A stretch of 64,000 nt of DNA from Astrocystis sublimbata (lineage: Eukaryota > Ascomycota > Sordariomycetes > Xylariales > Xylariaceae): positions 1 through 64,000 of the forward strand of contig JAJNNY010000008.1 of the NCBI GenBank assembly GCA_022453515.1. The letters run 5' to 3'. Below, in pieces: positions 1-23,306 of the stretch. The stretch's first letter is position 1, and the number at the start of each line of letters is the position of its first letter. The notes under the pieces are model-generated. The model searched no databases. It saw nothing but the letters and a program-made list of their open reading frames with translations, and had not been told where the DNA came from. The translations under genes and the position numbers were made by a program.

Positions 1-45
1 CAGACATGCGGATGTGGCACCACACTCACTGTAGAACTGTCATAA
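1..45 (+). CDS. 3' end of a second HET-gene copy (cut by window edge)
   Basis: Codons 1-14 followed by TAA at 43-45 encode QTCGCGTTLTVELS, identical to the C terminus of the HET-domain protein encoded on the minus strand at 20213-22120. The reading frame is open at base 1, so the rest of the copy lies upstream of the window. It is unknown whether that copy is complete. Confidence 0.9.
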   Translation, partial: QTCGCGTTLTVELS

Positions 46-381
46 TTTCCTACTCCAGAACCTCCGTCCTCGCAATCCTAGCTGTATCAAATGCCAACTG
101 AGAAGCCAAGAGTAAGTATTAGTCGAGGCTACGCATAGGGGTTACGAAGGTGTTATACCAACGTTGCGTGTGGCCTTGCCAAACAATGCGCGTGCGAAGT
201 GCAGTGGGGGGTGTAGATTAGTAATAGCGAACGTGCAATCATTCGTGTACGCAGTATCCATAGAACTAATTACACCAATGACTCCCACATTCATTCTTCA
301 TACTTACCTAGGTACCTAATTTCCGCCAGTATCCAATACATCAGCTAATCAAAAGACAGGGCTCACTACTAGGCCCCCCAA
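46..381. other. Intergenic, HET copy to aldo/keto reductase (left arm)
   Basis: No gene is seen. This short stretch separates the end of the HET copy from the ATG of the reductase on the same strand, so it should hold the reductase promoter. A G run near 205-210 has six bases here against seven in the other arm. A second one-base difference lies near 375. Confidence 0.6.
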
Positions 382-1266
382 ATGCCATCGACATCTGATA
401 CAATTGGCATATCCATTGCTGTCGGGACAGACAAGCTCCACGGGAAGGATTGCGTCGATGCTATACTGGCCAGCTTAGCCGCTGGATACCGCAGTATCGA
501 CACAGCGCAAGCTTACGGAAATGAAGAGAACATCGGGGAAGCCTTGCGACAATCTGATATTCCTCGCGGGGAGATAAATGTTAGCACCAAGATCTCAGAT
601 GGCTTTTGCAGCAACCCCAGCGATACGGATCGAGCATACGAATCCGCACTCGCCTCCATTCGGCGGTTGGGTGTATCTTCTGTTGATCTCTTCCTCGTGC
701 ACGCTCCCGGAACCGATGACGAAGCGAGACGTGCGACGTGGCAGGCTCTAGAGCGACTGGTCGACGAAGGATTTGCCAAGAGCATTGGAGTGAGTAATTA
801 CGGGGAAAAACACCTGATAGAGTTGAGGGCATATGCCAGGTTTTGGCCCCCAAAGGTCAATCAGATAGAGGCAAGCACATCCTCGACATCTCCCTTCACG
901 TTGTGGATTTTATCTACTAACAATCAATGCCCACTATAGCTTCACCCCGTGGTGCCAACAGCGCAACGTGGTCCAATTCTGTCGGTCCCAAGGTATCGAA
1001 GTACAGGCTGCTTGCGCACTAGTTCGAAATCGACGCTCATCTGATCCCGGCTTACATGCTCTCGCGACCAAGTATGGCAAGTCAACGGCCCAGATGCTCA
1101 TTCGATACAGCATTCAGAAAGGCTGGACCCCTGTTGTCAAAGCGGGCAACCCTGCTCATCTTCGAGAGAACGCCAACGTTCATGACTTCAGTATCGGGAT
1201 CGAAGATATGTGTCTAATGGATACGTGGGACGAAGGGAATCGCGGGCCATTTGTGAGTCTTTATAA
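382..1266 (+). pseudogene. Aldo/keto reductase, left copy with two frameshift indels
   Basis: NAD(P)H-dependent aldo/keto reductase copy, equivalent to the intact gene at 18990-19874. Exon 1 (382-870) is unchanged and carries the AKR tetrad context: Asp and Tyr in DTAQAYGNE, Lys in VSTKI and His in FLVHAPG. A GC-AG intron follows (871-939). In exon 2 this copy has four C where the other arm has three (about 944-947), which shifts the frame directly after the splice site. Near 1248 it has three G where the other arm has four, which restores the frame only for the last few codons. Both changes sit in short homopolymers, so they may be sequencing or polishing errors rather than real mutations. 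If real, the copy makes a truncated protein without the C-terminal half of the barrel. Confidence 0.75.
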
Positions 1267-2237
1267 TCATTCGGTGCCACTGTTGGTCCGTTACGAGAAT
1301 ATGTACTAAGACGAGCTAAAGTGCGAGTGCTACATCCTATTGAGTAGGCTCAAGCCATTCCTCACGCGATCGCCTATCATAACGTTATTCCTCTCCGCCG
1401 ACGATCAATGAATGCGCTCAAAAACTGGTCGGATTGCCTTCTGGCTGCCAAAGTCAGAACCCCAAAGTTGGTTCCTTCACCTGAAAGTACAGTCTCCCTC
1501 GATTTCCAAGGCCGAGGCCGCTCGGGCTGTGAGGCTCTTCCAGGACCCAAAGTGGCAACCAGCGGGTGTCATGGACGTATCATATGGCGCGGAGAGGTAG
1601 CAAAGTCTTGACTCTCCAAAGTGAGGCTCTGGACGTTCATCGGACACGGCGAAAATTTTGCTTCGGACGCGAACTTGTTATTGAAATATGCCATTACCCC
1701 TCTCCGAACCTTGCTTATCTGAACCAGTCTTGTGTCCACTCCTATCGACTTATTTGAAAACCCTCATGTGAAGCGACTCCGGGGCCCTGGTGGAAAAGCC
1801 TTGGCGTGGGGCGACTACTCGTAAACGAGCTCGACAAGCATTTCCGTACTTTTCAGGTTAACAAATATTGTGGATTTCTTCCGGGATCTGTGTTTCTCCA
1901 TCTTCCTCCACTCTGACCTTGGTGCGGGGTAGAGCTCCTTTATGCCGCTAGGTACTTTTGAATTTGCGGTTTTATGCCTGAGAATCAGGAAATGCGAATG
2001 CTTCAGGTTTATTCCCATACGCGCGTGTCTAGGGAGAAGACGAGGAAGGCAGTCTTATGTAAAGAATAGCTCACCATTAGAGCGTTTCCATCGACATCGT
2101 ATTCAGTTACGGGTGTTGTTCAAGGTTACGAAATCCCTAGAATTCTAGCTTTTATTGGGCGGTATAACAACAAACTGACACACAGAAAGTTGTCGTCCTC
2201 ACTTGTTGAAAGACGCCCGTGTTAGTCGATTTTAGAG
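1267..2237. other. Intergenic, no convincing gene (left arm)
   Basis: Short open frames here (for example 1408-1611 and 1942-2148) have no family resemblance I recognise and overlap one another in different frames. The stretch probably holds the 3' end of the reductase transcript and the promoter of the gene starting at 2238. One extra C near 2200 is a difference from the right arm. Confidence 0.5.
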
Positions 2238-5139
2238 ATGAGCGAAGCTCCGGCTTTATCAGCTTCTTCTACATGGAGCGATATTGGCCCGGGAGTAGCC
2301 ACGCCCTCGTCTAAAACCGATGGAGAACTCGAGGCCGAAAAAGCAGAGCTCGGCATATCATTTTCTGCACTTTTGAGTGCTCTGGATGGTGTCATCAGAG
2401 CGACGAAAGCACCTACGGGCGAATATCAGGACATTGAGCAGGCTTTTCGAGTCTGCCTCGGTCCCCATGTAGACGAAAATAATGAGGGTACTCTGAATCT
2501 TTCGTTCCGCGACTGGCAGGCAAGACTATCATCGAGTGTTCTCGGTGAGAGCCAGCAGAAGCGCGGGTGCCTTGCGATTGTTGTAGCATTCCTATGCGAG
2601 TGCAGCCGCAGGAACGTGAATACGTCTGCCGCAGATATGGACTTGGCATGGTCTGTTATACATCAAGCTTTAACAAGCTCCTCGATACCGTTCTCGGTCT
2701 CGCGCAGCTCTCAAGGTTTTCTTTCCGTCCCCTTGTCGAGTATACCACATGAAAACGACATCGGGGAGCTTTTCCGGCTCCACGTCTGGGAGCCCAATAC
2801 TTTGCGGGGAACCCTTGACTTGGGAATACATGCACACCAACCTTTCCTACAGAGCTGGATACTTGCTGGTAAAGGACGAGACTTGACCTATAAGGTGCAT
2901 CCTGCCGGACCCGACACCGCTACGCACGCCGAGTATGACGTCTTTTGGAGCGGCGGCGAGTCGGAAGAAAGCACGAAGACTTATCAAACGAAACCGAAAA
3001 CCTCCAGCCTTGTCAACACTGGGAGGCTAGTCAAAGTAGTTGAGACTTCGTCGGAAACACACTCAGCTGGTATGACCTACTCCATTCCGTCCTCTGTCTT
3101 TCATCGGTCTGAGGTTACCCCTGGCACTTTCCACGCGACTCTCGTTTTCTTCGACAGTATGCAGGGATTCAATCGAGAAGCAGCAGTCTTAGGTCCACGG
3201 GACGGAAATACATACTCGGCGAAACGGGAGCATGCGGGTTCGACTGCGGGGGATCTCGCCCACGCAGTCAACTCGGTCCGCGGATGGGCGACGCTCTTTG
3301 GACGCGGCATGGAACACACGTTGAAAGCCGAGTGGGAAGAGGCAGTACAGGTGTTTCAGAGAGCTATACATTTCTGCGAAACATGCTCACATTTGCCGAA
3401 TGCTCAGCATTACAAGCATAAAACCATGGCTGAGCTAGGACACATGTACAGGATGTTCGGGCGGAACGAACTCGCGGCCAAGACTTTAGAGGAAGCCCGC
3501 CACGACATGCCGCCAACTCGTCTTCGCGTACAAATTTCCGGTGAATTAGCAGTCGTATACCGACATATGGACCAGCTCGATGATTCGAGGAGAGCTGGCG
3601 AGGACGAGTACAATACTGCACAATCACTTGGATTGGATCGAGATATGTGCCGCGCCATAGGCACATTGGGAATGATAAACTACCAGCTATCGCTTACACT
3701 TGACCCATCACTCATTACAATTGCCATAGAGCAGCTCACGGAACGGGTCGATAGGGCCCGGAAGCTAAAAGCATTCGCCAGAGAGCAAATGCGCGACATC
3801 ACCGCACAGGCAGAGCAGATCGAGTGGGCTGCACAACGGGAAGCCATTGGACTTGGGCGACTCTGTCTCTGTTATCAACAGCTAGGAGACTTCGAACAGG
3901 CGGTAAGTATCGCTTTTGAATCCTTGCAAGTCCAGTCGACAACACGAGACCCATCTAAGATTGGGTTGGCAAGAGGGTTCTATGGGCTAGCTCTACTCGC
4001 CGCCGGTCGCCCAGAGGAGGCGGTTTCACAATTCAATATTCCCGATATGTGCTCACCTATCGTTTCCATGGCAAAAGAGCCTTCAAATGAGCACCGTGAA
4101 TACATCCGCACGATGGTCAAGGCCGGAGCAGATCGGGAAATGAGAGATGCGCATGGCTATTCTGCGTTGGAATGCGCTGTCTATAGTGGTGATGTTGAGA
4201 CGCAGACGATAATAGAGGAAGCATTGCGCGACAAGTATATGCGGCAGGCAATTGAAAAACTCAATCGCCAAAAGTATGAGGCGGTCCTTCGAAGAGGCTA
4301 TCGTGACCTCTTTCAGGACCAGCTTCGGCCGGTGCTCCTAGGCGCCAACACTGCGAATATGATCAAGAAGCTACGCACCACTTACGCCCTTGCTCTGGAT
4401 CGAAACAAAGAGCAATCAGATATGTTTGACCAGCTGAGATACGTCCGTTACACCGATTTCTTGCAAAGTGGCAAGCTGCCAAGGTCGACCGATGGAATCA
4501 CGCAACCGATGAACCTGAAGGAAACGTACAGTAGCAAGCCACTGAGCATGGTATTCATATCTTACAGATGGCTTCTTAAAGATTCAAGGTCAACTATTGT
4601 CCACGATTCCCCAGATGACCACGAAGGCACTCAGTACAAGCGCATGATACGCGCATTGGATCTGTACTTAGGTCTTCATCCTGAAATTTCTCTGCAAGAT
4701 CTGGGGATATGGCTGGTAAGTGATAGTCCTAGCACACGCCCCAAGAGAGCCGCTGCGCCGATGCCGTACTGATATTTGCGAATACTGCCAGGACTTTGCT
4801 TGCATAGATCAGGCAGATCACGAGCAGCAGACCCGAGGTATTGCGGCGTTATTGATGAACCTCGCACAATGCGATGCAATGATCAGCCTCGTTGACGATG
4901 CATATTACGAGCGAGCATGGTGCTGCGTCGAGGTCCTCATGATGCGGACACTAAAACAGGCCTACGGTCGGCACCTTTGGTATCAACACACCATAGACCC
5001 TACTACGAAGACCGAGAATCTGCGCCCCGGGCCAACTTCGTTGGAGACGCCTATCGACCTTAGCATGAAGAAAGTCACGTTAGAAGCTGATAGGCCAAAG
5101 TTGATGTTCCTGGAGCGACAGACCAAACTCATTAGCTAG
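2238..5139 (+). CDS. TPR/ankyrin protein with C-terminal TIR-like domain (left copy)
   Basis: Two exons, 2238-4715 and 4792-5139, separated by a 76-bp GT-AG intron; about 941 aa. The first 320 residues match nothing I recognise. Residues about 355-620 look like tetratricopeptide helices (EWEEAVQVFQRAI is typical), followed by an ankyrin-like stretch around 635-680 (AGADREMRDAHGYSALECA). The C terminus holds FISYRW near residue 770, CIDQ near 830 and AWCCVE near 868. This motif set occurs in eukaryotic TIR-like domains fused to repeats. The intron joins IWL to DFACIDQ, which supports the splice. Such repeat-plus-effector proteins are candidates for self/non-self recognition or cell death, and a HET gene lies nearby. 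That role is inference. Identical to the copy at 15118-18019. Confidence 0.7.
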
Positions 5140-5425
5140 GTACTTGATGCAGCCACTCACTACAAAGGCCTAAATTCACCCTCGGCTTTTTTTATCCGTT
5201 CTAGAACGATTGATTGCAGAAAGCAATAAGACGCAACGGAGTGTGGTAGGCTTCAATCATATTAGACTATTCGTCGGTTATAGACATGACCTTGACGATG
5301 GTAATCGAGAGCCCGGCCGCCCGACTCGGGACTTAGTAGACGGATAGTGCATATAGGCTTAACTTCATGATGCCTCAATTTCCTATTCCATGTCTGAAGA
5401 AACAATTCAAAACCTCCGGCTCCTA

Positions 5426-6415
5426 TCAACTACCCTTGACATCACACACCGCAGACCAGTAGTGTTCGGGTTCAGCAGCGATGCGCCCGTGCTTAGGAGC
5501 GTACTCCTCCTCTCCACCACCAGACTGCCCATGTGCCAGGTTCAATTGCTGCCTATAATCCAGGTAGTTGAAATCATCATCAACGAATTCAGCTATGTTG
5601 GCGCACTCAATATGATCCCACGATTCCACGCGTGAACGCGCCTCGAGCGGGAACTTCATCCTCATGCCCGATTTGAACCAGGTAGGCGCGTAGATGAATC
5701 CCAGCATGATCCGCGGGGTTTCCGAGTAGTTTGGCATGCCGGCATGCCACATTCGGATATCTCTGACTACGATGGAGCCCTTCGGAATCGTCAGCTGGAC
5801 CGGAAGGCAATTCCTGGCTCTTTCCACGAAGACCTCGCGCTTGATCCACCCCATGTCGGCAAACAGATGATCTTTCTTATTGTATCCGTTATGGGTACCC
5901 AACCAAACTTCAGTACTGCCATTATGTAGAGAAGTGTCGTCAAGGAAGATGTTTACTTCCAGAAAGACCGGGAAATCCAGGTGCCTGCAGTAGTAATCGC
6001 TATGTACAGCCTGTCGGGACTGGCCCCCAGGGAGTGCCGTGTTGGCTGTCGCGAAACATAACTGTGGCCGTGGCCCGACGATATACGACATCATGGAGAC
6101 GGCTATGCGGTTTGCCCAGACCTCTTCGTGGAGGTAGTCGGCGAGAAGGGGTGGGGTCTGTGAGATATTTCCCGATCCAACCCCGTGATTGTAATGAACG
6201 GATGGCAATGCTAAAACTTTGAGGATATCCTCTAGCATGCGTTCGCGAACATGATCGAGCGCCAGCAGTGGCACAGCGTCTTCTAGGATAACCATTCCAT
6301 TCTTGTGGAATTCGGTTAGGCTATCCTGTAAGTGAGGACTCAATTGTCCACTTCTTAGCTCATCCTGAGATACGTGGACTCGTCGAACATGGAGCTGTTC
6401 TCGCGCTTGGTACAT
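5426..6415 (-). CDS. PhyH-type Fe(II)/2-oxoglutarate dioxygenase (left copy)
   Basis: Single-exon gene, 329 aa, starting MYQAREQ. The phytanoyl-CoA dioxygenase fold is indicated by the HxD iron motif in VHSDYY (about residues 137-141), the distal His in MWHAGMPNYSETPRI (about 222) and the Arg some ten residues later that would bind 2-oxoglutarate. These enzymes hydroxylate or otherwise oxidise small molecules, and in fungi they often act as tailoring enzymes in metabolite pathways. The substrate is unknown. It converges on the TIR-like gene, with 286 bases between the stops. Identical to the copy at 13842-14831. Confidence 0.85.
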   Translation of the reverse strand: MYQAREQLHVRRVHVSQDELRSGQLSPHLQDSLTEFHKNGMVILEDAVPLLALDHVRERMLEDILKVLALPSVHYNHGVGSGNISQTPPLLADYLHEEVWANRIAVSMMSYIVGPRPQLCFATANTALPGGQSRQAVHSDYYCRHLDFPVFLEVNIFLDDTSLHNGSTEVWLGTHNGYNKKDHLFADMGWIKREVFVERARNCLPVQLTIPKGSIVVRDIRMWHAGMPNYSETPRIMLGFIYAPTWFKSGMRMKFPLEARSRVESWDHIECANIAEFVDDDFNYLDYRQQLNLAHGQSGGGEEEYAPKHGRIAAEPEHYWSAVCDVKGS

Positions 6416-7577
6416 AATTAACTGTTAACAAAGGAGGCAGATCCTTGGATGACCCGCGGTATATGAAGGGATACTAGAAGAAGAGGACAAGAGCGCGGAC
6501 CCATGTGGGTAGCAGATGCAGTAGATAGGTACTTAGTATCTATATAGGCAATTGATGGCCCGCCCTTTTAGAACCACACAGAACTTTAATACTCGAATGT
6601 CTCCGATGCAAGCCCTTCGCTCCTCGATTGGGGGCGGCGACTGTCTTATAGATTAAGCTTGAGGTAATGTCGTACTGGGGCGGGTCTGGCAAGGTACCAA
6701 GAGGTAATCAGCTATTTCAGGCTTACTAAAACTCACCCTTCCGTAACAAGTAAAGCGCCATAATTCAAATCAGGAATCTACTACGGCTTAAACGGTTGTT
6801 ATCAAGTCGTTTTGGTTTATCCATAGTTATATAACTAATTCTATTTTAAAAATTTAAACTTGAGTTTTATAATCGGGTAGTACGAGATAGACTTCAAATA
6901 TTATAGTGCTGAACTTAGGAGAATATCCACTATAACCAGTTTATATCATCAATCATCAAAGTGTGTATATGGCCTCCTCACTGTTCTTACTAAAAAGTCC
7001 GGTTTGGTGATTAATTACATAAAACCCAAGCGCCTCTTGGTAGATTTCCCCTCTGAATATAATAGTGATGCAGCATCGAATTCGTATCTTTGGCCGTTGT
7101 CTCTTTACTCGCGACATTCCATTATATTCAACAATGCTCAGCAGCTTGAAAGAAGCGAATAGTTAGCTTTTTCCAATTTTTACCCCTATACATATACTCA
7201 GATAGTAATGCAACAAAAGGGGCTGTAATTGCGAGGACCCAGGATTGAATTTAGAGTTGCGACAAGCGGCAGATAAAACCCTATTGTCCGATTCGAACAA
7301 AAACGAGTGATTCGCTGAACACGCAGGAAGTACAGGCAGCCTTATATTCAAACTTCAAACATACTTAAGTCGAAATTCTAATTACTTCGCGTTAATTATA
7401 TAAATACGTGGACCCCTGACTTAATTCCTTCCGTTTAACTTACCCCTCTCGAGTCCATACCTACTCATATCTATTCCCTGACAACGAGATTATATTTACC
7501 ACGCTGCCGACTCACAACCACTGACCAATCCTTAAACAAGTACTAAAACATCACACAGCTAATTTACTACATTTATA
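6416..7577. other. AT-rich intergenic region between divergent genes (left arm)
   Basis: No gene is supported. The region separates the divergently transcribed dioxygenase and HNH-like genes and becomes AT-rich from about 6780 to 7160. It should contain both promoters. TATA-like bases lie at 7397-7406, about 170 bp upstream of the ATG at 7578. Confidence 0.5.
7397..7406 (+). promoter_or_regulatory. Possible TATA box of the HNH-like gene
   Basis: The string tatataaata lies about 170 bp before the proposed start at 7578. The region is generally AT-rich, so chance occurrence is possible. The same bases occur mirrored at 12851-12860. Confidence 0.25.
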
Positions 7578-9113
7578 ATGTCTCATCGTCTAATTAGTCT
7601 CGGCATGGACTTAATCTACGCGATGTTTCGTGTCACGAAACAGGTGGAATTGGTCACAAACGACTTCCACGAAAAGTATTGGGAGAAAGTCGTACTTATA
7701 TATGGTAATATTTCTTTATTTCCCCCCTTATCTTCTTCCCTTCCTTTATTTTCTATATTCCTTCGTCCTCTTCGTCTTCTTCTTCGTTTTTACTCTAGTC
7801 ATATCAATATATTATCAGGTAGCAGTACCCTTCCTAACCCTTTATTTTAGAGCTACGCAGCCGAGCCCTGTCGTGCGACCTCGAGCTTGTTAGGCGGGAT
7901 TGTGTCGAAGGAGGTAATACACTCGGGAGCTTTATCAAAGTAGATGACACATGCACCCTAAACATTTTCAACCGTCGCAACCTCACGATCAAGTACCAAC
8001 AGGCTATAGAAGCCCACAAGAGGCTGCAACGGATGTTCCTAGAACAAGGGAACAGGGCGAAACACTTGAGCTGGGACTCGTATGCATCGTGTCCGCACCA
8101 ACATGTTCACCTACAGCCGCGTAGGGCTGCAAATACCTGGGCTTAACAGAGTGGTACAGCACCTCGACCAGCTTGAAATCAAGGAAGATATTTGCCGCGC
8201 GTACGACCTTGCCAACCCGCACGACCGTCGCGAAAATGGCGCAGTCTGGAGCATCGCCCACGGTCGCTGGATCTTGAAATCCGCACTGAGATGGGTGAGC
8301 ATTTTCCCCATGTTGTGGGGCCAGACGATGATGACGGAGATATTCGGGGACGAATATCGGCATGAGCTGGGATCGGTGCGGAACCGACTCCTCCTGCCTT
8401 GGGATATAGAGATAGCCATGGCTCACGGGGCCATTGTCATTGTCCCGGACCTAGACCTCTCATCACAGGGTGCTAGCAGCGCGACGTCCCGCCCACAAGA
8501 GAACTACAAGTTTCGCGTCTTGGACCCCGATCATCCGAACTTGAACAGTTGGTTCGTGGGCTTTTCAGAACCCCACCGCCTCGGAAAAGACCTGGACCAC
8601 TGCCGACTGGTCTTTCCCGGGGACCTCCGGCCACGCGCCTGCTTCCTATGGCTCTGGTTCGCGTGCGCTGTACTGAAGTGTTTCTGGCGAGTATCGTCCC
8701 CTCAAAAGCTATTACAATCCGCCGAGGGCATGTGGGGGATAAGTGGTGCTTACGTGAGAAAGGACTTTGTACTGGGTTTGGTGGAGGAGATGGGACAGGG
8801 GGCGGCATTCCTGCTGCAGGGAGCAATGCCACGTGATACGAACCAGGACGACGTATTGAATATGGCCGTGCCAGTGCTGGTGGCTAGCCATGTGGCGAGA
8901 ATCGCCGGGTATTACCGGCATGGTGAGAATGAAAATGGAACCCAGTACATGGGCGAAGACGTGGAGGACTACTGGGAAGACGACCGCTGGGACGAGGATG
9001 ATAACATGGACGTGGACGTGAAAAATACAGAGGACCCCCCTCAGGAAAAGTTCGACGAGGACTGGGATAAGACCTCGGAGGAAGACTCGGAAGAAAACTC
9101 AGGAGAAGATTAA
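7578..9113 (+). CDS. Uncharacterised fungal protein, tentative HNH-like, acidic tail (left copy)
   Basis: My model has three exons: 7578-7704, 7851-8079 and 8150-9113, total 1320 nt, 439 aa. The first intron (146 bp) has a good branch point (cctaac near 7832) and acceptor tttattttag. The second (70 bp, donor gtatgc) is less certain; the 343-aa frame from 8082 is the fallback. Spacing of features in exon 3 (SIAHGRWI, GSVRNRLLLPWDIEIAM, VIVPDL, then LDHCRLVFPGDLRPR) resembles fungal HNH_2-type proteins, but I do not see a full set of catalytic histidines. The last 50 or so residues are dominated by Asp and Glu, which suggests a flexible or nucleic-acid-mimicking tail. Identical to 11144-12679. 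Confidence 0.5.
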
Positions 9114-11143
9114 TAATATTATTATAAGGAAAGAGTGAGTTAGACTTGCTAATCTAAAGACCTGGGATTGCGAATTACATGCTACTGACTGTTTGGAAAT
9201 ACGTCATGCTCAATCGTGTTTTAAACAGTATTATATAACTATATAGTTGAATATAATTCTCGGCCAACTATAATGTGCTAGACTTCCCAACAGCTGCTCT
9301 GGGGAAAGCTGGCTGAAAACTCGTGTTTTTATAACCCTCAATTCAGGACTTTGGACGCTAGGAGGCACGAACCTTCTTTCACTTTCAAGTTCACGCTCTT
9401 CACAACGTATAGATTCCTCTATGGAGGCTTCTTCCTCCGGTATATAAGGGTTGACACTTTTATATCCCAACGTTCTTGCACTTATGCTGTCACCGAAGGC
9501 GTCACCAGCAGTACCACCTTAGTCTGCCTGAGCCCATGACGCCCCCGCCAGCGGGCCTTTCGCCAACCTTCGACAACAGCGAGCGAAGGTATTCTCAACC
9601 CCATTAGATAGAATGAGAAATGAGACATTCTACCCTATCGTCTACCATAGTATTTACAGCAGCTGACCCTAACACGCCTAAATCCTACCATCTACATGCG
9701 TGTCACATCCATCTCACACGTGTATAGCTTCTTCAAGAATAGCAGTATTGTCCAGCGTGGCCACCTGACACCCACAGAGCTTTGCTTGGACACATGTCAC
9801 GGAAAAACGTCATCCTAGGGATAGATGTATTCTCAAGATTGACGCGACCCCGAGTCGATGTCGGAGGATTTTAATCTGCCCGTGTCCACTCTGAAACTGG
9901 ATAGAATGCCAGCTTACCTTAAGTACCTAAGCAAGGACATAGCAGTGTAGCACCAACAATATAACGCCTTGCGAGTTACCTGGTAGTATCCTCGACGTGT
10001 GGAGTTAGGGCTTGTATAGCTGCAATAGTACTCCGGTACTTCAATAAAAACCGCTTCCTTTGCAATAATAATAGGGTTTTATGAAGGTTAAAAACTTACC
10101 TTATAACTTTTTTTTTACAATATACTCTAAAGTATATTGTAAAAAAAAAGTTATAAGGTAAGTTTTTAACCTTCATAAAACCCTATTATTATTGCAAAGG
10201 AAGCGGTTTTTATTGAAGTACCGGAGTACTATTGCAGCTATACAAGCCCTAACTCCACACGTCGAGGATACTACCAGGTAACTCGCAAGGCGTTATATTG
10301 TTGGTGCTACACTGCTATGTCCTTGCTTAGGTACTTAAGGTAAGCTGGCATTCTATCCAGTTTCAGAGTGGACACGGGCAGATTAAAATCCTCCGACATC
10401 GACTCGGGGTCGCGTCAATCTTGAGAATACATCTATCCCTAGGATGACGTTTTTCCGTGACATGTGTCCAAGCAAAGCTCTGTGGGTGTCAGGTGGCCAC
10501 GCTGGACAATACTGCTATTCTTGAAGAAGCTATACACGTGTGAGATGGATGTGACACGCATGTAGATGGTAGGATTTAGGCGTGTTAGGGTCAGCTGCTG
10601 TAAATACTATGGTAGACGATAGGGTAGAATGTCTCATTTCTCATTCTATCTAATGGGGTTGAGAATACCTTCGCTCGCTGTTGTCGAAGGTTGGCGAAAG
10701 GCCCGCTGGCGGGGGCGTCATGGGCTCAGGCAGACTAAGGTGGTACTGCTGGTGACGCCTTCGGTGACAGCATAAGTGCAAGAACGTTGGGATATAAAAG
10801 TGTCAACCCTTATATACCGGAGGAAGAAGCCTCCATAGAGGAATCTATACGTTGTGAAGAGCGTGAACTTGAAAGTGAAAGAAGGTTCGTGCCTCCTAGC
10901 GTCCAAAGTCCTGAATTGAGGGTTATAAAAACACGAGTTTTCAGCCAGCTTTCCCCAGAGCAGCTGTTGGGAAGTCTAGCACATTATAGTTGGCCGAGAA
11001 TTATATTCAACTATATAGTTATATAATACTGTTTAAAACACGATTGAGCATGACGTATTTCCAAACAGTCAGTAGCATGTAATTCGCAATCCCAGGTCTT
11101 TAGATTAGCAAGTCTAACTCACTCTTTCCTTATAATAATATTA
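9114..11143. other. Central spacer of the palindrome between the two HNH-like genes
   Basis: About 1 kb on each side of the symmetry point at 10128. No recognised gene. A mirrored 79-codon frame (9231-9470 minus, 10787-11026 plus) is rich in Glu/Ser/Arg but has no supporting context. Near 9607-9641 a local imperfect hairpin pairs gatagaatg with cattctaccctatc; it recurs in mirror form near 10616-10650. Confidence 0.5.
10117..10140. repeat. Palindrome centre: short inverted repeat with 4-nt spacer
   Basis: The arms acaatatact (10117-10126) and agtatattgt (10131-10140) are perfect reverse complements around the spacer ctaa. They are flanked outward by nine T (10108-10116) and nine A (10141-10149), and the long arms continue from there without a break. 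A short inverted repeat at the symmetry point fits fold-back priming or intrastrand annealing at a broken end. It also fits a chimeric template-switched read. Confidence 0.95.
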
Positions 11144-12679: not shown

Positions 12680-13841
12680 TATAAATGTAGTAAATTAGCT
12701 GTGTGATGTTTTAGTACTTGTTTAAGGATTGGTCAGTGGTTGTGAGTCGGCAGCGTGGTAAATATAATCTCGTTGTCAGGGAATAGATATGAGTAGGTAT
12801 GGACTCGAGAGGGGTAAGTTAAACGGAAGGAATTAAGTCAGGGGTCCACGTATTTATATAATTAACGCGAAGTAATTAGAATTTCGACTTAAGTATGTTT
12901 GAAGTTTGAATATAAGGCTGCCTGTACTTCCTGCGTGTTCAGCGAATCACTCGTTTTTGTTCGAATCGGACAATAGGGTTTTATCTGCCGCTTGTCGCAA
13001 CTCTAAATTCAATCCTGGGTCCTCGCAATTACAGCCCCTTTTGTTGCATTACTATCTGAGTATATGTATAGGGGTAAAAATTGGAAAAAGCTAACTATTC
13101 GCTTCTTTCAAGCTGCTGAGCATTGTTGAATATAATGGAATGTCGCGAGTAAAGAGACAACGGCCAAAGATACGAATTCGATGCTGCATCACTATTATAT
13201 TCAGAGGGGAAATCTACCAAGAGGCGCTTGGGTTTTATGTAATTAATCACCAAACCGGACTTTTTAGTAAGAACAGTGAGGAGGCCATATACACACTTTG
13301 ATGATTGATGATATAAACTGGTTATAGTGGATATTCTCCTAAGTTCAGCACTATAATATTTGAAGTCTATCTCGTACTACCCGATTATAAAACTCAAGTT
13401 TAAATTTTTAAAATAGAATTAGTTATATAACTATGGATAAACCAAAACGACTTGATAACAACCGTTTAAGCCGTAGTAGATTCCTGATTTGAATTATGGC
13501 GCTTTACTTGTTACGGAAGGGTGAGTTTTAGTAAGCCTGAAATAGCTGATTACCTCTTGGTACCTTGCCAGACCCGCCCCAGTACGACATTACCTCAAGC
13601 TTAATCTATAAGACAGTCGCCGCCCCCAATCGAGGAGCGAAGGGCTTGCATCGGAGACATTCGAGTATTAAAGTTCTGTGTGGTTCTAAAAGGGCGGGCC
13701 ATCAATTGCCTATATAGATACTAAGTACCTATCTACTGCATCTGCTACCCACATGGGTCCGCGCTCTTGTCCTCTTCTTCTAGTATCCCTTCATATACCG
13801 CGGGTCATCCAAGGATCTGCCTCCTTTGTTAACAGTTAATT
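12680..13841. other. AT-rich intergenic region between divergent genes (right arm)
   Basis: Mirror of 6416-7577. No gene is seen. It should carry the promoters of the HNH-like gene (minus) and the dioxygenase (plus). Confidence 0.5.
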
Positions 13842-14831
13842 ATGTACCAAGCGCGAGAACAGCTCCATGTTCGACGAGTCCACGTATCTCAGGATGAGCT
13901 AAGAAGTGGACAATTGAGTCCTCACTTACAGGATAGCCTAACCGAATTCCACAAGAATGGAATGGTTATCCTAGAAGACGCTGTGCCACTGCTGGCGCTC
14001 GATCATGTTCGCGAACGCATGCTAGAGGATATCCTCAAAGTTTTAGCATTGCCATCCGTTCATTACAATCACGGGGTTGGATCGGGAAATATCTCACAGA
14101 CCCCACCCCTTCTCGCCGACTACCTCCACGAAGAGGTCTGGGCAAACCGCATAGCCGTCTCCATGATGTCGTATATCGTCGGGCCACGGCCACAGTTATG
14201 TTTCGCGACAGCCAACACGGCACTCCCTGGGGGCCAGTCCCGACAGGCTGTACATAGCGATTACTACTGCAGGCACCTGGATTTCCCGGTCTTTCTGGAA
14301 GTAAACATCTTCCTTGACGACACTTCTCTACATAATGGCAGTACTGAAGTTTGGTTGGGTACCCATAACGGATACAATAAGAAAGATCATCTGTTTGCCG
14401 ACATGGGGTGGATCAAGCGCGAGGTCTTCGTGGAAAGAGCCAGGAATTGCCTTCCGGTCCAGCTGACGATTCCGAAGGGCTCCATCGTAGTCAGAGATAT
14501 CCGAATGTGGCATGCCGGCATGCCAAACTACTCGGAAACCCCGCGGATCATGCTGGGATTCATCTACGCGCCTACCTGGTTCAAATCGGGCATGAGGATG
14601 AAGTTCCCGCTCGAGGCGCGTTCACGCGTGGAATCGTGGGATCATATTGAGTGCGCCAACATAGCTGAATTCGTTGATGATGATTTCAACTACCTGGATT
14701 ATAGGCAGCAATTGAACCTGGCACATGGGCAGTCTGGTGGTGGAGAGGAGGAGTACGCTCCTAAGCACGGGCGCATCGCTGCTGAACCCGAACACTACTG
14801 GTCTGCGGTGTGTGATGTCAAGGGTAGTTGA
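13842..14831 (+). CDS. PhyH-type Fe(II)/2-oxoglutarate dioxygenase (right copy)
   Basis: 329 aa, identical in translation to the gene at 5426-6415. The HxD motif (VHSDYY), the distal His (MWHAGMPN) and the following Arg are intact, so the enzyme should be active. It converges on the TIR-like gene at 15118-18019 with a 286-base gap. If the palindrome is real, the organism carries two identical doses of this enzyme. Confidence 0.85.
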   Translation: MYQAREQLHVRRVHVSQDELRSGQLSPHLQDSLTEFHKNGMVILEDAVPLLALDHVRERMLEDILKVLALPSVHYNHGVGSGNISQTPPLLADYLHEEVWANRIAVSMMSYIVGPRPQLCFATANTALPGGQSRQAVHSDYYCRHLDFPVFLEVNIFLDDTSLHNGSTEVWLGTHNGYNKKDHLFADMGWIKREVFVERARNCLPVQLTIPKGSIVVRDIRMWHAGMPNYSETPRIMLGFIYAPTWFKSGMRMKFPLEARSRVESWDHIECANIAEFVDDDFNYLDYRQQLNLAHGQSGGGEEEYAPKHGRIAAEPEHYWSAVCDVKGS

Positions 14832-15117
14832 TAGGAGCCGGAGGTTTTGAATTGTTTCTTCAGACATGGAATAGGAAATTGAGGCATCATGAAGTTAAGC
14901 CTATATGCACTATCCGTCTACTAAGTCCCGAGTCGGGCGGCCGGGCTCTCGATTACCATCGTCAAGGTCATGTCTATAACCGACGAATAGTCTAATATGA
15001 TTGAAGCCTACCACACTCCGTTGCGTCTTATTGCTTTCTGCAATCAATCGTTCTAGAACGGATAAAAAAAGCCGAGGGTGAATTTAGGCCTTTGTAGTGA
15101 GTGGCTGCATCAAGTAC

Positions 15118-18019
15118 CTAGCTAATGAGTTTGGTCTGTCGCTCCAGGAACATCAACTTTGGCCTATCAGCTTCTAACGTGACTTTCTTCATGCTAAGGT
15201 CGATAGGCGTCTCCAACGAAGTTGGCCCGGGGCGCAGATTCTCGGTCTTCGTAGTAGGGTCTATGGTGTGTTGATACCAAAGGTGCCGACCGTAGGCCTG
15301 TTTTAGTGTCCGCATCATGAGGACCTCGACGCAGCACCATGCTCGCTCGTAATATGCATCGTCAACGAGGCTGATCATTGCATCGCATTGTGCGAGGTTC
15401 ATCAATAACGCCGCAATACCTCGGGTCTGCTGCTCGTGATCTGCCTGATCTATGCAAGCAAAGTCCTGGCAGTATTCGCAAATATCAGTACGGCATCGGC
15501 GCAGCGGCTCTCTTGGGGCGTGTGCTAGGACTATCACTTACCAGCCATATCCCCAGATCTTGCAGAGAAATTTCAGGATGAAGACCTAAGTACAGATCCA
15601 ATGCGCGTATCATGCGCTTGTACTGAGTGCCTTCGTGGTCATCTGGGGAATCGTGGACAATAGTTGACCTTGAATCTTTAAGAAGCCATCTGTAAGATAT
15701 GAATACCATGCTCAGTGGCTTGCTACTGTACGTTTCCTTCAGGTTCATCGGTTGCGTGATTCCATCGGTCGACCTTGGCAGCTTGCCACTTTGCAAGAAA
15801 TCGGTGTAACGGACGTATCTCAGCTGGTCAAACATATCTGATTGCTCTTTGTTTCGATCCAGAGCAAGGGCGTAAGTGGTGCGTAGCTTCTTGATCATAT
15901 TCGCAGTGTTGGCGCCTAGGAGCACCGGCCGAAGCTGGTCCTGAAAGAGGTCACGATAGCCTCTTCGAAGGACCGCCTCATACTTTTGGCGATTGAGTTT
16001 TTCAATTGCCTGCCGCATATACTTGTCGCGCAATGCTTCCTCTATTATCGTCTGCGTCTCAACATCACCACTATAGACAGCGCATTCCAACGCAGAATAG
16101 CCATGCGCATCTCTCATTTCCCGATCTGCTCCGGCCTTGACCATCGTGCGGATGTATTCACGGTGCTCATTTGAAGGCTCTTTTGCCATGGAAACGATAG
16201 GTGAGCACATATCGGGAATATTGAATTGTGAAACCGCCTCCTCTGGGCGACCGGCGGCGAGTAGAGCTAGCCCATAGAACCCTCTTGCCAACCCAATCTT
16301 AGATGGGTCTCGTGTTGTCGACTGGACTTGCAAGGATTCAAAAGCGATACTTACCGCCTGTTCGAAGTCTCCTAGCTGTTGATAACAGAGACAGAGTCGC
16401 CCAAGTCCAATGGCTTCCCGTTGTGCAGCCCACTCGATCTGCTCTGCCTGTGCGGTGATGTCGCGCATTTGCTCTCTGGCGAATGCTTTTAGCTTCCGGG
16501 CCCTATCGACCCGTTCCGTGAGCTGCTCTATGGCAATTGTAATGAGTGATGGGTCAAGTGTAAGCGATAGCTGGTAGTTTATCATTCCCAATGTGCCTAT
16601 GGCGCGGCACATATCTCGATCCAATCCAAGTGATTGTGCAGTATTGTACTCGTCCTCGCCAGCTCTCCTCGAATCATCGAGCTGGTCCATATGTCGGTAT
16701 ACGACTGCTAATTCACCGGAAATTTGTACGCGAAGACGAGTTGGCGGCATGTCGTGGCGGGCTTCCTCTAAAGTCTTGGCCGCGAGTTCGTTCCGCCCGA
16801 ACATCCTGTACATGTGTCCTAGCTCAGCCATGGTTTTATGCTTGTAATGCTGAGCATTCGGCAAATGTGAGCATGTTTCGCAGAAATGTATAGCTCTCTG
16901 AAACACCTGTACTGCCTCTTCCCACTCGGCTTTCAACGTGTGTTCCATGCCGCGTCCAAAGAGCGTCGCCCATCCGCGGACCGAGTTGACTGCGTGGGCG
17001 AGATCCCCCGCAGTCGAACCCGCATGCTCCCGTTTCGCCGAGTATGTATTTCCGTCCCGTGGACCTAAGACTGCTGCTTCTCGATTGAATCCCTGCATAC
17101 TGTCGAAGAAAACGAGAGTCGCGTGGAAAGTGCCAGGGGTAACCTCAGACCGATGAAAGACAGAGGACGGAATGGAGTAGGTCATACCAGCTGAGTGTGT
17201 TTCCGACGAAGTCTCAACTACTTTGACTAGCCTCCCAGTGTTGACAAGGCTGGAGGTTTTCGGTTTCGTTTGATAAGTCTTCGTGCTTTCTTCCGACTCG
17301 CCGCCGCTCCAAAAGACGTCATACTCGGCGTGCGTAGCGGTGTCGGGTCCGGCAGGATGCACCTTATAGGTCAAGTCTCGTCCTTTACCAGCAAGTATCC
17401 AGCTCTGTAGGAAAGGTTGGTGTGCATGTATTCCCAAGTCAAGGGTTCCCCGCAAAGTATTGGGCTCCCAGACGTGGAGCCGGAAAAGCTCCCCGATGTC
17501 GTTTTCATGTGGTATACTCGACAAGGGGACGGAAAGAAAACCTTGAGAGCTGCGCGAGACCGAGAACGGTATCGAGGAGCTTGTTAAAGCTTGATGTATA
17601 ACAGACCATGCCAAGTCCATATCTGCGGCAGACGTATTCACGTTCCTGCGGCTGCACTCGCATAGGAATGCTACAACAATCGCAAGGCACCCGCGCTTCT
17701 GCTGGCTCTCACCGAGAACACTCGATGATAGTCTTGCCTGCCAGTCGCGGAACGAAAGATTCAGAGTACCCTCATTATTTTCGTCTACATGGGGACCGAG
17801 GCAGACTCGAAAAGCCTGCTCAATGTCCTGATATTCGCCCGTAGGTGCTTTCGTCGCTCTGATGACACCATCCAGAGCACTCAAAAGTGCAGAAAATGAT
17901 ATGCCGAGCTCTGCTTTTTCGGCCTCGAGTTCTCCATCGGTTTTAGACGAGGGCGTGGCTACTCCCGGGCCAATATCGCTCCATGTAGAAGAAGCTGATA
18001 AAGCCGGAGCTTCGCTCAT
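15118..18019 (-). CDS. TPR/ankyrin protein with C-terminal TIR-like domain (right copy)
   Basis: Mirror of 2238-5139. Minus-strand exons are 15542-18019 and 15118-15465, with the intron at 15466-15541; about 941 aa. TPR-like helices occupy the middle, an ankyrin-like unit follows, and the C-terminal segment carries FISYRW, CIDQ and AWCCVE. It lies 2.2 kb from the HET-domain gene at 20213-22120. That neighbourhood is what one expects of fungal incompatibility or innate-immunity loci, although function here is not shown. The domain could also be a divergent HET-like fold rather than a true TIR. Confidence 0.7.
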
Positions 18020-18989
18020 CTCTAAAATCGACTAACACGGGCGTCTTTCAACAAGTGAGACGACAACTTTCTGTGTGTCAGTTTGTTGTTATACCGCCCA
18101 ATAAAAGCTAGAATTCTAGGGATTTCGTAACCTTGAACAACACCCGTAACTGAATACGATGTCGATGGAAACGCTCTAATGGTGAGCTATTCTTTACATA
18201 AGACTGCCTTCCTCGTCTTCTCCCTAGACACGCGCGTATGGGAATAAACCTGAAGCATTCGCATTTCCTGATTCTCAGGCATAAAACCGCAAATTCAAAA
18301 GTACCTAGCGGCATAAAGGAGCTCTACCCCGCACCAAGGTCAGAGTGGAGGAAGATGGAGAAACACAGATCCCGGAAGAAATCCACAATATTTGTTAACC
18401 TGAAAAGTACGGAAATGCTTGTCGAGCTCGTTTACGAGTAGTCGCCCCACGCCAAGGCTTTTCCACCAGGGCCCCGGAGTCGCTTCACATGAGGGTTTTC
18501 AAATAAGTCGATAGGAGTGGACACAAGACTGGTTCAGATAAGCAAGGTTCGGAGAGGGGTAATGGCATATTTCAATAACAAGTTCGCGTCCGAAGCAAAA
18601 TTTTCGCCGTGTCCGATGAACGTCCAGAGCCTCACTTTGGAGAGTCAAGACTTTGCTACCTCTCCGCGCCATATGATACGTCCATGACACCCGCTGGTTG
18701 CCACTTTGGGTCCTGGAAGAGCCTCACAGCCCGAGCGGCCTCGGCCTTGGAAATCGAGGGAGACTGTACTTTCAGGTGAAGGAACCAACTTTGGGGTTCT
18801 GACTTTGGCAGCCAGAAGGCAATCCGACCAGTTTTTGAGCGCATTCATTGATCGTCGGCGGAGAGGAATAACGTTATGATAGGCGATCGCGTGAGGAATG
18901 GCTTGAGCCTACTCAATAGGATGTAGCACTCGCACTTTAGCTCGTCTTAGTACATATTCTCGTAACGGACCAACAGTGGCACCGAATGA
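18020..18989. other. Intergenic, no convincing gene (right arm)
   Basis: Mirror of 1267-2237 with one base fewer (a single C instead of two near 18058). Short frames at 18499-18690 and 18645-18848 overlap in conflicting frames and resemble no known family. Confidence 0.5.
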
Positions 18990-19874
18990 TTATAAAGACT
19001 CACAAATGGCCCCGCGATTCCCTTCGTCCCACGTATCCATTAGACACATATCTTCGATCCCGATACTGAAGTCATGAACGTTGGCGTTCTCTCGAAGATG
19101 AGCAGGGTTGCCCGCTTTGACAACAGGGGTCCAGCCTTTCTGAATGCTGTATCGAATGAGCATCTGGGCCGTTGACTTGCCATACTTGGTCGCGAGAGCA
19201 TGTAAGCCGGGATCAGATGAGCGTCGATTTCGAACTAGTGCGCAAGCAGCCTGTACTTCGATACCTTGGGACCGACAGAATTGGACCACGTTGCGCTGTT
19301 GGCACCACGGGTGAAGCTATAGTGGGCATTGATTGTTAGTAGATAAAATCCACAACGTGAAGGGAGATGTCGAGGATGTGCTTGCCTCTATCTGATTGAC
19401 CTTTGGGGGCCAAAACCTGGCATATGCCCTCAACTCTATCAGGTGTTTTTCCCCGTAATTACTCACTCCAATGCTCTTGGCAAATCCTTCGTCGACCAGT
19501 CGCTCTAGAGCCTGCCACGTCGCACGTCTCGCTTCGTCATCGGTTCCGGGAGCGTGCACGAGGAAGAGATCAACAGAAGATACACCCAACCGCCGAATGG
19601 AGGCGAGTGCGGATTCGTATGCTCGATCCGTATCGCTGGGGTTGCTGCAAAAGCCATCTGAGATCTTGGTGCTAACATTTATCTCCCCGCGAGGAATATC
19701 AGATTGTCGCAAGGCTTCCCCGATGTTCTCTTCATTTCCGTAAGCTTGCGCTGTGTCGATACTGCGGTATCCAGCGGCTAAGCTGGCCAGTATAGCATCG
19801 ACGCAATCCTTCCCGTGGAGCTTGTCTGTCCCGACAGCAATGGATATGCCAATTGTATCAGATGTCGATGGCAT
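18990..19874 (-). CDS. Aldo/keto reductase (right, intact copy)
   Basis: Exons 19386-19874 and 18990-19316 are joined across a 69-bp intron with a GC donor (gcaagc), a tactaac-type branch point and an AG acceptor. The product is 271 aa. The AKR tetrad is visible as Asp and Tyr in DTAQAYGNE, Lys in VSTKI and His in FLVHAPG. The splice yields NQIE-LHPWCQQRN, the normal AKR strand/loop sequence, and the end GNRGAICESL aligns with the usual AKR C-terminal region. It would reduce a carbonyl using NAD(P)H. The length is slightly below the 280-330 aa usual for the family, so a few C-terminal residues may be missing. Confidence 0.85.
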
Positions 19875-20212
19875 TTGGGGCGGCCTAGTAGTGAGCCCTG
19901 TCTTTTGATTAGCTGATGTATTGGATACTGGCGGAAATTAGGTACCTAGGTAAGTATGAAGAATGAATGTGGGAGTCATTGGTGTAATTAGTTCTATGGA
20001 TACTGCGTACACGAATGATTGCACGTTCGCTATTACTAATCTACACCCCCCCACTGCACTTCGCACGCGCATTGTTTGGCAAGGCCACACGCAACGTTGG
20101 TATAACACCTTCGTAACCCCTATGCGTAGCCTCGACTAATACTTACTCTTGGCTTCTCAGTTGGCATTTGATACAGCTAGGATTGCGAGGACGGAGGTTC
20201 TGGAGTAGGAAA
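19875..20212. other. Intergenic, reductase to HET gene
   Basis: Mirror of 46-381, with seven rather than six bases in the C/G run near 20045. No gene is seen. It lies between the reductase start and the HET-gene stop on the same strand. Confidence 0.6.
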
Positions 20213-22120
20213 TTATGACAGTTCTACAGTGAGTGTGGTGCCACATCCGCATGTCTGTGGTCCAAAGCGCACACGGCCGATGATCATCCCGTGATCCATG
20301 ATGAGTGCCATCCCATCATATACCGACATACTGTATGCTAACCCCGGAATTTGCAACACTTGGGTCTGACTTGTTGGTTTCCCCCACAACGCCGCTCGTA
20401 TTAAGCTATCCTTTCCGCAAGTGAGACAACGAACGACAAGCAGATTATACTCGTCTGAGTTGCAAATCAAGCCGTAGAATTCGAGCCGAGGAAGCATTGT
20501 AAAGGGGCCCCTGGCTTCGATTGGTGGCTCATCCAAACCAAGGACTGAAATGAAGTGCCGACTTAATAGCCCGTCTGGCGCGACTCGGTCTTCTTCGGAT
20601 TCAGCGTCGCCATAGAGCTGCAGAACTTGCTGTAATTGCGCCTCACGGTGCTCGCTCAGGTGAACCTGGTAACGTAGCCCAGGAAAGTCGTACGTCCCAT
20701 CATTTCTCTGAGCCCAAAACACCTTTGAGGGGTAAATTGATTCGATTGCTCTGAGAAATGTAGTCGTGGACCCCGCAGCAAACCCGATCAAATGGGGAAG
20801 AGCTTCGGCGAACCCATAATAGGAAGTATCATTTGTTGCACCCATCCTCCATGTCGCGTGTTTGATGACGCTGCCTAATTGTTTTAAAGGGAGGTCTAGT
20901 TTATCTCCTCGGAGACGTGGGGGACTTTGCGCAGCTCGGGTTTGCGTGCCCAAACCCCACATCTTAGAAGACATGACAGTGTGACCCCTTAGCCAGCGAG
21001 CTACCTCATATGATCCCTCGAGGGAAGGAGATAGTAAAAGCGGGCTGTAATCGTTCCCAGCGAGACATCTCCTCGATATCCAGGCGCATGCTTCTTGTGG
21101 GTCTTGTGGCATTTCTGAGATCATCAAGAGGTGGTCGTTTACATTAAGGAGAGCGCATGTAGCGACAAATCGATCCCGATGAGAGCGGCACTCTTGACTG
21201 CTAATCATGTCGTATATATAACCCAAACATTTGACTTTCACCTTCTCTTTGAGAAACATTGGTATCGTCTCAAGAAGCTGCGAAATTGATTCTGCGGTCT
21301 GAGGCGTTACCGTGGTACCCCCCCAGCGGCAATCGGCCTGGCAGTTTTGAAGCCGTTTAGTCAAGGTAGAGAGCGAGCTTGACATGAGTTCATAGTTGCT
21401 GTTCATGACATGTGCATCTCGGCAGACGTCGTACTCGATGACGATCCACATCCGACGAAACCATCGCGCGCCGAAAAGGCGCCGCAGCTCTAGCGACTGA
21501 AGCGCGAAATCGTCGGAGTTGTATCGTTCCTGTACCTGGAAAGCCGGACGTTCATCCAGATGTATGACTGACGAGATCCCGGCTTGAAATATTTGGAAGA
21601 TCTGTGGGAGAATTTTGGCACCACGGAACTCGTCCTGCCACTGAGGTATACTGACATAGTCATGCCAAATGTACGAGTCCGGGCCAAAGCGCCGAGCAAC
21701 TCCCATCAATATACGAATGGGCATCTCATAGACCATGCTAGCTGCCGCGGGATTGGAGTTCCGAGACTCGTAGGCTTCCGCAACAGGGTGGTGCCATGCA
21801 TGAGAAATTGGAAAATACTTGATCTTGCCCAACTCAAGACAGTTCAGATGGGCGTTGACGATGATCACTGGGAGCAAGCCGTTCTTTGAGGGATAATGAA
21901 TTACGTCAGGGCTGCCGTGAAGACGAAGGAGTCGAACTGGAGGGGCCTTAGCAATGTCAAAGTCCATAGTGCAGATGGAGCAAGGTGAGTCAAAAGCACC
22001 GCCCCAGCAGGCTTCTAAGAACTGGTGCGGCATGATCTCGAGTCGGCGTCCGGCAAGGTAGAGAGTATACATGATTTTGGGATTGTCATGATAGTCACAC
22101 GGAGCTCGAACAGTGCCCAT
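20213..22120 (-). CDS. HET-domain (heterokaryon incompatibility) protein
   Basis: Single-exon gene, 635 aa, starting MGTVRAPCDY. The HET core lies at about residues 95-260: YFPISHAW, then SYIWHDYVSIPQW, an ILPQIFQIFQAG helix and ARWFRRMWIVIEY. This is the classic order of HET blocks 1 to 3, with IEY where QE or QEI is more usual. The C-terminal half is typical of large HET proteins and carries no domain I can name. Cysteine pairs at the very end (RCLTCG, QTCGCG) could bind metal. HET proteins act in allorecognition and programmed cell death on contact with unlike strains. The last 14 codons are duplicated at base 1 of the window, so the gene straddles the visible limit of the palindrome. Confidence 0.88.
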   Translation of the reverse strand: MGTVRAPCDYHDNPKIMYTLYLAGRRLEIMPHQFLEACWGGAFDSPCSICTMDFDIAKAPPVRLLRLHGSPDVIHYPSKNGLLPVIIVNAHLNCLELGKIKYFPISHAWHHPVAEAYESRNSNPAAASMVYEMPIRILMGVARRFGPDSYIWHDYVSIPQWQDEFRGAKILPQIFQIFQAGISSVIHLDERPAFQVQERYNSDDFALQSLELRRLFGARWFRRMWIVIEYDVCRDAHVMNSNYELMSSSLSTLTKRLQNCQADCRWGGTTVTPQTAESISQLLETIPMFLKEKVKVKCLGYIYDMISSQECRSHRDRFVATCALLNVNDHLLMISEMPQDPQEACAWISRRCLAGNDYSPLLLSPSLEGSYEVARWLRGHTVMSSKMWGLGTQTRAAQSPPRLRGDKLDLPLKQLGSVIKHATWRMGATNDTSYYGFAEALPHLIGFAAGSTTTFLRAIESIYPSKVFWAQRNDGTYDFPGLRYQVHLSEHREAQLQQVLQLYGDAESEEDRVAPDGLLSRHFISVLGLDEPPIEARGPFTMLPRLEFYGLICNSDEYNLLVVRCLTCGKDSLIRAALWGKPTSQTQVLQIPGLAYSMSVYDGMALIMDHGMIIGRVRFGPQTCGCGTTLTVELS

Positions 22121-23306
22121 TGCGTAGGCACAGATCTCTCACATCTAGGCCATTGTAGTGTAGAATAAGTAAGCTTGCATCGTCCACCCAGCCCACTTTG
22201 CAGGACTGGATGCGACCGTGAAAAGTGTCAATCACACGAAAAACGATGCAAAGAAATCAATATTGCCTATACAGAAAAACGTCAGCATTGTATGAGATTT
22301 GTGATTACTACGTGAAACATACCTATCCCATATCTTCATTGTCTATCCGTCTGCCTTGGGTTGCTCAAATTCTATAAGTTTGGATCAAAATCTTGATCTC
22401 TGTGTGTTGGAAGATTCATGGAAAGTGCACACCAACAGTTGCAGTTGCAACATGGATGTTCTATCTAAGCCCTATCAGGTCAAGCTTCATTCTGAATAAC
22501 TAGCGAGACTGCCGACTCCGTGTCGCGGATCCAAGTGGGTTGGGAGATCAAGATGGCATGGATGGGTACAGGGATAATACGGGGTGACGGGTTAGGCACG
22601 GGGTATTACGGCTGTCATACTTGGCCCTCACTTGGCTGGTCAGCGCCTTATGTAGCGCCGCCTTGCCTGTTCACATACTAGGTAGGTATGACTGGAGATG
22701 ACCAGGTCTCATGAGAGGGAAAAATGCACGCTTTCGAGCACATTCGAAATCATGCGTCGTGGGTAGCATTGTTAGCCTCGAGGAATTGCAACCATCCATC
22801 CGTCCTTCTCCTTCCCAAACTGGATAAAGCTAAATAACAGTGGCCTCGACCGACAGGGGCCGCTGAGGGAGAATGTTGATTGGTCGCGAAACGCAATTGA
22901 GGGAACCAGCGGTTGGCTGTGGTGTGCAGAACGAGCGACTGGAAGTTTGCCATCCCGAACGAGGCTTAGAGCCGACGTACCATCACCAACATTGACATGC
23001 AAATCCCCACCTTGCATACTTCGTGCAACAATTTAGCATGGCAAATGGCAGATACGCGCGGAAGGTGATGGCTGAGGGAGGCCAGGGAGGCCAAGGAGGC
23101 CCCAGAGCCGCTCGCCGGATGACGACGACAGCGATCGCGGTGCAAGGTTGGAGGGAATAGGATTTTAGATAGTTATTTAAGATGAGAGCAATCCCCTGAC
23201 TGGAGGAGGAAAAGCTTGTTTGTTCTTCATCCCGTTCATCAAGTTAAAGTCGTGCGCGAATATCAATCATCGCCGCTTACACTCATCCGGCACCAACATT
23301 ATCACG
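22121..23306. other. Intergenic between divergent HET and lipase genes
   Basis: About 1.2 kb without a supported gene. It should hold the promoters of the HET gene (minus) and the secreted lipase (plus). Small frames near 22750-23017 look like chance. Confidence 0.6.

Follow-up and report, generated by a model that had tools for sequence, protein, structure and literature searches.

Is a 20-kb palindrome at the start of a contig a feature of the genome, or was it made when the genome was sequenced and assembled? The question arises for the window analyzed here, a stretch of 64,000 bases that forms bases 1 to 64000 of contig C168 (1,032,563 bases) in an assembly of 42.6 Mb and 189 contigs. The initial annotation had described a near-perfect palindrome of more than 20 kb at the start of the window and had offered two accounts of it: a real structure, either very recent or kept identical by gene conversion, and a fold-back artifact at a contig end.

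The palindrome and its place in the contig

When the window was aligned to itself by BLASTN, positions 1 to 20257 matched positions 20257 to 1 at 99.94% identity, which bears out the palindrome and its size. A full alignment of the arms gave a left, or tip, arm of 10,126 bases (1-10126, minus strand), which starts at contig base 1 and retraces in inverted orientation a right, or inner, arm of 10,127 bases (10131-20257, plus strand); the earlier estimate of about 10.1 kb per arm was accurate. Between them lies the fold-back point, a 4-base spacer (CTAA, 10127-10130) in AT-rich surroundings, to which the two mismatched columns that close the arm alignment belong. The innermost 100 bases of the arm are 28% GC. 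The only differences over the entire length of the arms are five single-base indels, at left-arm positions 205, 375, 945, 1243, and 2197; there are no substitutions, and the same count had previously been made on parts of the arms. Chance cannot be the source of this symmetry. The second half of the structure lies on the opposite strand and 4 bases from the first, within the 200 bases that define a fold-back.

The left arm stops exactly at base 1 of C168, and the palindrome has no outer boundary on that side. On the other side, the boundary at 20257 is no natural edge: it falls within a HET-like open reading frame (ORF) of 635 amino acids (20213-22120, minus strand; HET, 20.1 bits against a cut-off of 22.5), of which only the last 45 bases recur, at the contig tip. 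The inner arm runs unbroken into the rest of the contig and is probably the true sequence.

Might this be a real inverted duplication of recent date, in which a break was repaired by priming from a folded-back hairpin in AT-rich DNA, to give a true palindrome of at least 20 kb? The letters alone are compatible with such an event, and the center, a short-loop hairpin in AT-rich DNA, would be a plausible site for it. Moreover, if each arm of a real palindrome exceeded half a read in length, the contig would likewise halt one read beyond the center. The exact end at the tip is therefore not decisive by itself, and the contig end may have cut a longer real palindrome. However, no second flank was found: assembly searches with 2238-10000, with the center (9000-11300), and with the next 3.2 kb beyond the inner arm (20258-23500) matched C168 alone. 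The assembly matches of a 60-base marker from the left tip of C168 were confined to the two C168 arms.

Genes and differences in the arms

All five indels are confined to the outer 2.2 kb of the structure, on the tip side. Were indels spread evenly, such clustering would have a chance of about 5e-4, for a limit picked after the indels had been seen. Two of them sit in an aldo/keto reductase gene that is split in each arm and was absent from the gene names of the initial annotation. In the inner arm (18990-19874, minus strand) the gene has two putative exons, joined at an acceptor and by continuity of the domain, with a predicted donor; the spliced reading is open and matches PF00248 at 1e-38. 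The inner arm keeps its frame across both indels (LHPWCQQ...GAICESL). Only the tip arm has a broken frame: in its copy (382-1309), the frame is lost at the start of exon 2, which leaves that exon out of frame, and is shifted again near the end. The correct arm could be judged at these two indels, and the other three give no verdict. Where it can be judged, then, the tip arm is the poorer copy, as thin read support predicts, although thin support would mark contig ends of any kind and not fold-backs alone. The tip arm probably does not represent a second copy in the genome.

The remaining genes of the arms were compared with Pfam. The ORF that had been labeled dioxygenase (329 amino acids; 13842-14831, plus strand; tip-arm copy at 5426-6415) is indeed phytanoyl-CoA dioxygenase-like, with a PhyH match (PF05721) at 2e-12. 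The HNH-like label survives as a weak hint: the 343-amino-acid ORF in question (11144-12175, minus strand; tip-arm copy at 8082-9113) resembles HNH_2 at an E value of 0.053 and scores 13.8 bits, under the cut-off of 21. A TIR-like gene could not be confirmed. Its place is taken by two overlapping ORFs of 844 and 139 amino acids (15118-18019, minus strand; tip-arm copy at 2238-5139), for which, read unspliced, Pfam gives TPR repeats alone, in the first of the two; introns may hide a TIR domain from such a search. Gene content (HET-like, PhyH, and an aldo/keto reductase with a putative intron), together with the TTAGGG contig ends and the mutation-like composition described below, suggests that the DNA comes from a filamentous fungus. 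Neither Rfam at gathering scores nor ARAGORN with the bacterial code found RNA or tRNA features in the window. Outside the palindrome, at 48915-49268, an 81-base unit is repeated in tandem (4.4 copies, with 85% matches).

Fold-backs at other contig ends

Palindromes of different sequence occur at other contig ends. Bases 1 to 7062 of C2 form one with 99.83% identity that ends exactly at the contig tip. A 37-kb palindrome with 98.87% identity occupies bases 259224 to 296260 of C132 (296,260 bases), where its outer end is the last base of the contig; it was found by chance during the telomere-repeat search described below. Hence, the structure stops where the contig stops at base 1 of C168, at base 1 of C2, and at the last base of C132, and at the remaining folded ends this coincidence rests on 60-base markers near the tip. 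The arm differences of the C132 palindrome lie in two blocks, at about 266.2-268.2 kb (mostly indels) and 275.2-277.2 kb (mostly substitutions), and its substitutions overall are mainly transitions; uneven polishing is perhaps the source of these blocks.

We sampled 54 contig ends, made up of 18 starts (C1 to C18) and 36 tips of 24 contigs sized 296 kb to 1.56 Mb. Self-alignment of the 18 starts over 10 kb was positive for C2 alone. The other 53 ends were searched as 60-base markers against the assembly, in four sets of 11, 14, 11, and 17, and three already known folds that served as positive controls were all found. An inverted copy of the tip in the same contig was present at 9 of the 54 ends, 11 of the 54 having been judged on 40 of 110 candidates scored. 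The nine are the left end of C2 (by self-alignment) and, by marker, the right ends of C1 and C13 and the left ends of C135, C35, C179, C126, C57, and C9. The count omits the left end of C168 and the right end of C132, which were not blindly sampled, as well as the tips of C68, C79, C90, and C101. With the right end of C132, folding thus recurs within the same data set at ends that do not share the sequence of the window. Interior markers served as a control: 24 of 24 found themselves, and one had an inverted copy in its contig, the twice-folded C9. This control comprised 24 of 33 prepared markers plus 20 bases of a 25th, and since 16 of the 24 came from C168, it was not matched for contigs.

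At the other 45 sampled ends, including the right end of C168, no inverted copy in the same contig was found. These unfolded ends count against a fold-back artifact. In one set, made up of 10 AT-rich tips and the right end of C35, a high-identity inverted copy in the same contig was found at 0 of 11 ends, a weak zero given that 40 of 110 candidates were scored. Recurrence weighs against a real inverted duplication as well: separate recent events would be needed at 9 of 54 sampled ends, each of them reaching the contig tip.

One contig folds more than once. In C9 (67,950 bases), one stretch is read forward, back, and forward again, with folds near 20,690 and 41,614 as calculated from the marker places. 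C60 and C62 hold single forward copies of C9 markers, C141 and C138 hold inverted copies of the tip markers of other contigs, and markers are shared exactly between C5 and C153, between the left end of C13 and C88, and between the left end of C130 and C131. Such exact sharing indicates that some contig pieces in the assembly are redundant or repeated.

Base composition of the fold centers

We read 1 kb around 14 fold centers (C168, C2, C132, C13, C135, C1, C35, C179, C126, C57, C87, C141, C138, and C48), four of which (C48, C87, C141, and C138) had entered the set through shared sequence. A scan gave spacers of 1 to 66 bases in 10 of the 14. About 200 bases separate the arms in C135 and C48; in C1 and C35 the scan gave no exact center, although aligning the kilobase to its reverse complement gave 95.5% (C1) and 87.6% (C35) identity. 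The 100 bases at or beside the center are 5 to 35% GC in all 14 cases; for C135, C1, C35, C126, C57, C87, C141, C138, and C48 they were taken from the predicted middle and may be partly spacer. A GC content of 35% or less occurs at 14 of 14 centers and at 10 of the 45 unfolded tips (Fisher p = 1.5e-7), and the difference persists when C48 and C87 are set aside (12 of 12; Fisher p = 9e-7). Background windows of 100 bases fall at or below this value in 2.2% of 833 cases in the interior of C168 and in 5.0% of 1,782 cases at the starts of C1 to C18. Because all 14 centers are AT-rich compared with 10 of 45 unfolded tips, we conclude that AT-rich DNA marks the fold itself more than it marks contig ends generally. 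For the fold-back artifact this is a demand as much as a support: for it to explain why centers are AT-richer than unfolded tips, such DNA must either favor folding or be poorly covered by ordinary reads.

A missed PacBio adapter at the centers was considered and rejected for want of direct support. A 31-base sequence, which we take to be the core of the PacBio adapter, had no match anywhere in the assembly with up to 3 mismatches; adapters that had been trimmed would escape this search.

The AT-rich DNA of the genome has a composition like that left by repeat-induced point mutation (RIP), which raises TpA/ApT and lowers (CpA+TpG)/(ApC+GpT). In 29 AT-rich windows of 500 bases (16 loci) these ratios are 1.39 and 0.55; in 463 normal windows they are 0.77 and 1.18. 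In a genome of this kind, a 10-kb duplication that has passed through a sexual cycle should carry many C-to-T changes, and the arms at 1-20257 carry none. This absence of substitutions argues against a real inverted duplication, though it is no argument against one newer than the last cross. With the missing second flank and the number of independent events required, a true duplication seems to us very unlikely. A related possibility is that AT-rich tracts with RIP mutations fold back and are copied in vivo, and that the culture thereby harbors large, fresh inverted duplications at many loci, 1-20257 among them; we consider this most improbable.

The turning points of C2 and C48

C48 opens with the tip marker of C2, yet it turns after a longer spacer. 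The left tip of C106 shares an identical 173-base stretch with C48, almost the whole of which lies in that spacer. C2 and C48 are apparently two fold-back junctions of one sequence, with C106 as a candidate for the sequence that truly adjoins C2. A heritable palindrome is expected to have a single junction. With the first 10 kb of C2 as the query and 2 of 4 candidates scored, C2 itself not being among the listed matches, we also found a relative in C129 at 85 to 87% identity. Because of this relative, C2 and C48 might represent separate copies of a repeated sequence rather than one locus.

Telomere repeats

A hairpin-closed or sister-fused chromosome end, around whose closed terminus reads would pass, should also be considered. 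A nearly spacer-free center is, we would expect, how a covalently closed end looks in long reads. Such an end would go with chromosomes that lack ordinary telomere repeats, but C15 (58,027 bases) ends in an ordinary TTAGGG array that runs to 58,025. The two junctions that C2 and C48 show for apparently one sequence also disagree with a closed terminus, and we find this explanation hardly credible. Four copies of TTAGGG were matched at 145 places in the assembly, and among the 100 matches listed, the contigs were C15, C132, C143, and C156. A telomere at the center of C168 was discounted, the center letters containing no TTAGGG array. The TTAGGG runs at 275136-275658 of C132 and at 57306-58025 of C15 have starts 493 (C132) and 492 (C15) bases apart; in C15 the later run extends to the end of the contig, and in C132 it is internal, about 2 kb before the fold.

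Discussion

What, then, produced the palindrome at 1-20257? The case for an artifact is made by the recurrence at other contig ends, the apparent double junction seen in C2 and C48, the threefold reading of one stretch in C9, and the errors at the tip. Together with the exact end at base 1 and the AT-rich centers, these observations lead us to infer that fold-back reads were the cause: the palindrome is very probably a product of sequencing and assembly in which such reads were built into the contig end, a judgment drawn from sequence. A long read or molecule would have run outward along the contig as far as an AT-rich tract near 10,128; there the DNA would have folded back and been copied or joined to its own complement, and the read would then have returned on the opposite strand. 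If the assembler built the final extension of the contig from one read of this kind, or from a few, the contig would run back over its terminal 10.1 kb and stop where the read stopped, at what is now contig base 1. Molecules that ended or broke in AT-rich tracts may have snapped back there, and where ordinary reads were scarce in these tracts the assembler may have closed contigs with fold-back reads.

The assembler may instead have acted alone, with no chimeric molecule at all: on meeting an AT-rich repeat mutated by RIP, it would have switched to the opposite strand of the same reads and walked back. Fold-back points in AT-rich DNA fit this purely computational origin, as do markers of one contig that recur exactly in another and suggest redundant or tangled contigs. 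However, a single fold-back molecule most simply explains the short spacers, 4 bases here and 1 to 66 bases in 10 of 14 centers by the scan, and the triple pass through one stretch of C9 also counts against the assembler as sole agent. We regard this origin as unlikely. That the palindrome is an artifact of one kind or the other, from chimeric reads or from the assembler alone, we hold with high confidence; a real genomic feature it almost certainly is not. The fold-back at a contig end that the initial annotation had raised is thus well supported, by an arm that ends at base 1, by recurrence with other sequence, and by differences that cluster at the tip. Its very recent or gene-converted palindrome is not.

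Palindromic reads in a study of tardigrade mitogenomes reportedly came from amplification. Two reports document fold-back reads that have a short spacer or none (PMC12870357, PMC6218980). The first puts them at about 0.55 to 0.6% of reads in nanopore genomic DNA, finds almost none in three PacBio samples (HiFi, Mas-Seq, and Iso-Seq), and states that they often lack a searchable spacer, sometimes repeat at the same place, and are thought to originate in library preparation (PMC12870357). Set against one in six sampled ends here, these rates mean that fold-back reads would have to be enriched at contig ends, a point against our preferred explanation. The fold-back reads found with Breakinator resemble 1-20257 in being near-perfect and symmetric and in returning on the opposite strand of the same place after a spacer of a few bases (PMC12870357). 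In contrast, ours lie in assembled contigs and have AT-rich centers, a term absent from the main text of that paper.

Chimeras from whole-genome amplification have the same shape and can iterate, according to the Pacasus report (PMC6218980); these artificial inverted repeats, sometimes iterated, are like C9. They arose in amplified DNA, however, and here there is no sign of amplification. The same report mentions the primate Y palindromes, whose inverted arms are long and highly similar, as here (PMC6218980). For those, about double depth is expected, whereas the present structure has a contig end on one side and is known from its assembled letters.

If fold-back reads did close these contigs, the case would be a clear one, for those who build assembly methods, of fold-backs in AT-rich DNA that became fixed at contig ends. 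A simple screen suggests itself: each contig tip is compared with its own contig on the opposite strand. Trimming of the same kind would apply to about a dozen contigs (C1, C2, C9, C13, C35, C48, C57, C87, C126, C132, C135, and C179). Were the palindromes real, which is unlikely, this genome would offer an outstanding system in which to study duplication driven by hairpins. If they are artifacts, no gene in 1-10126 should enter a count of duplicates.
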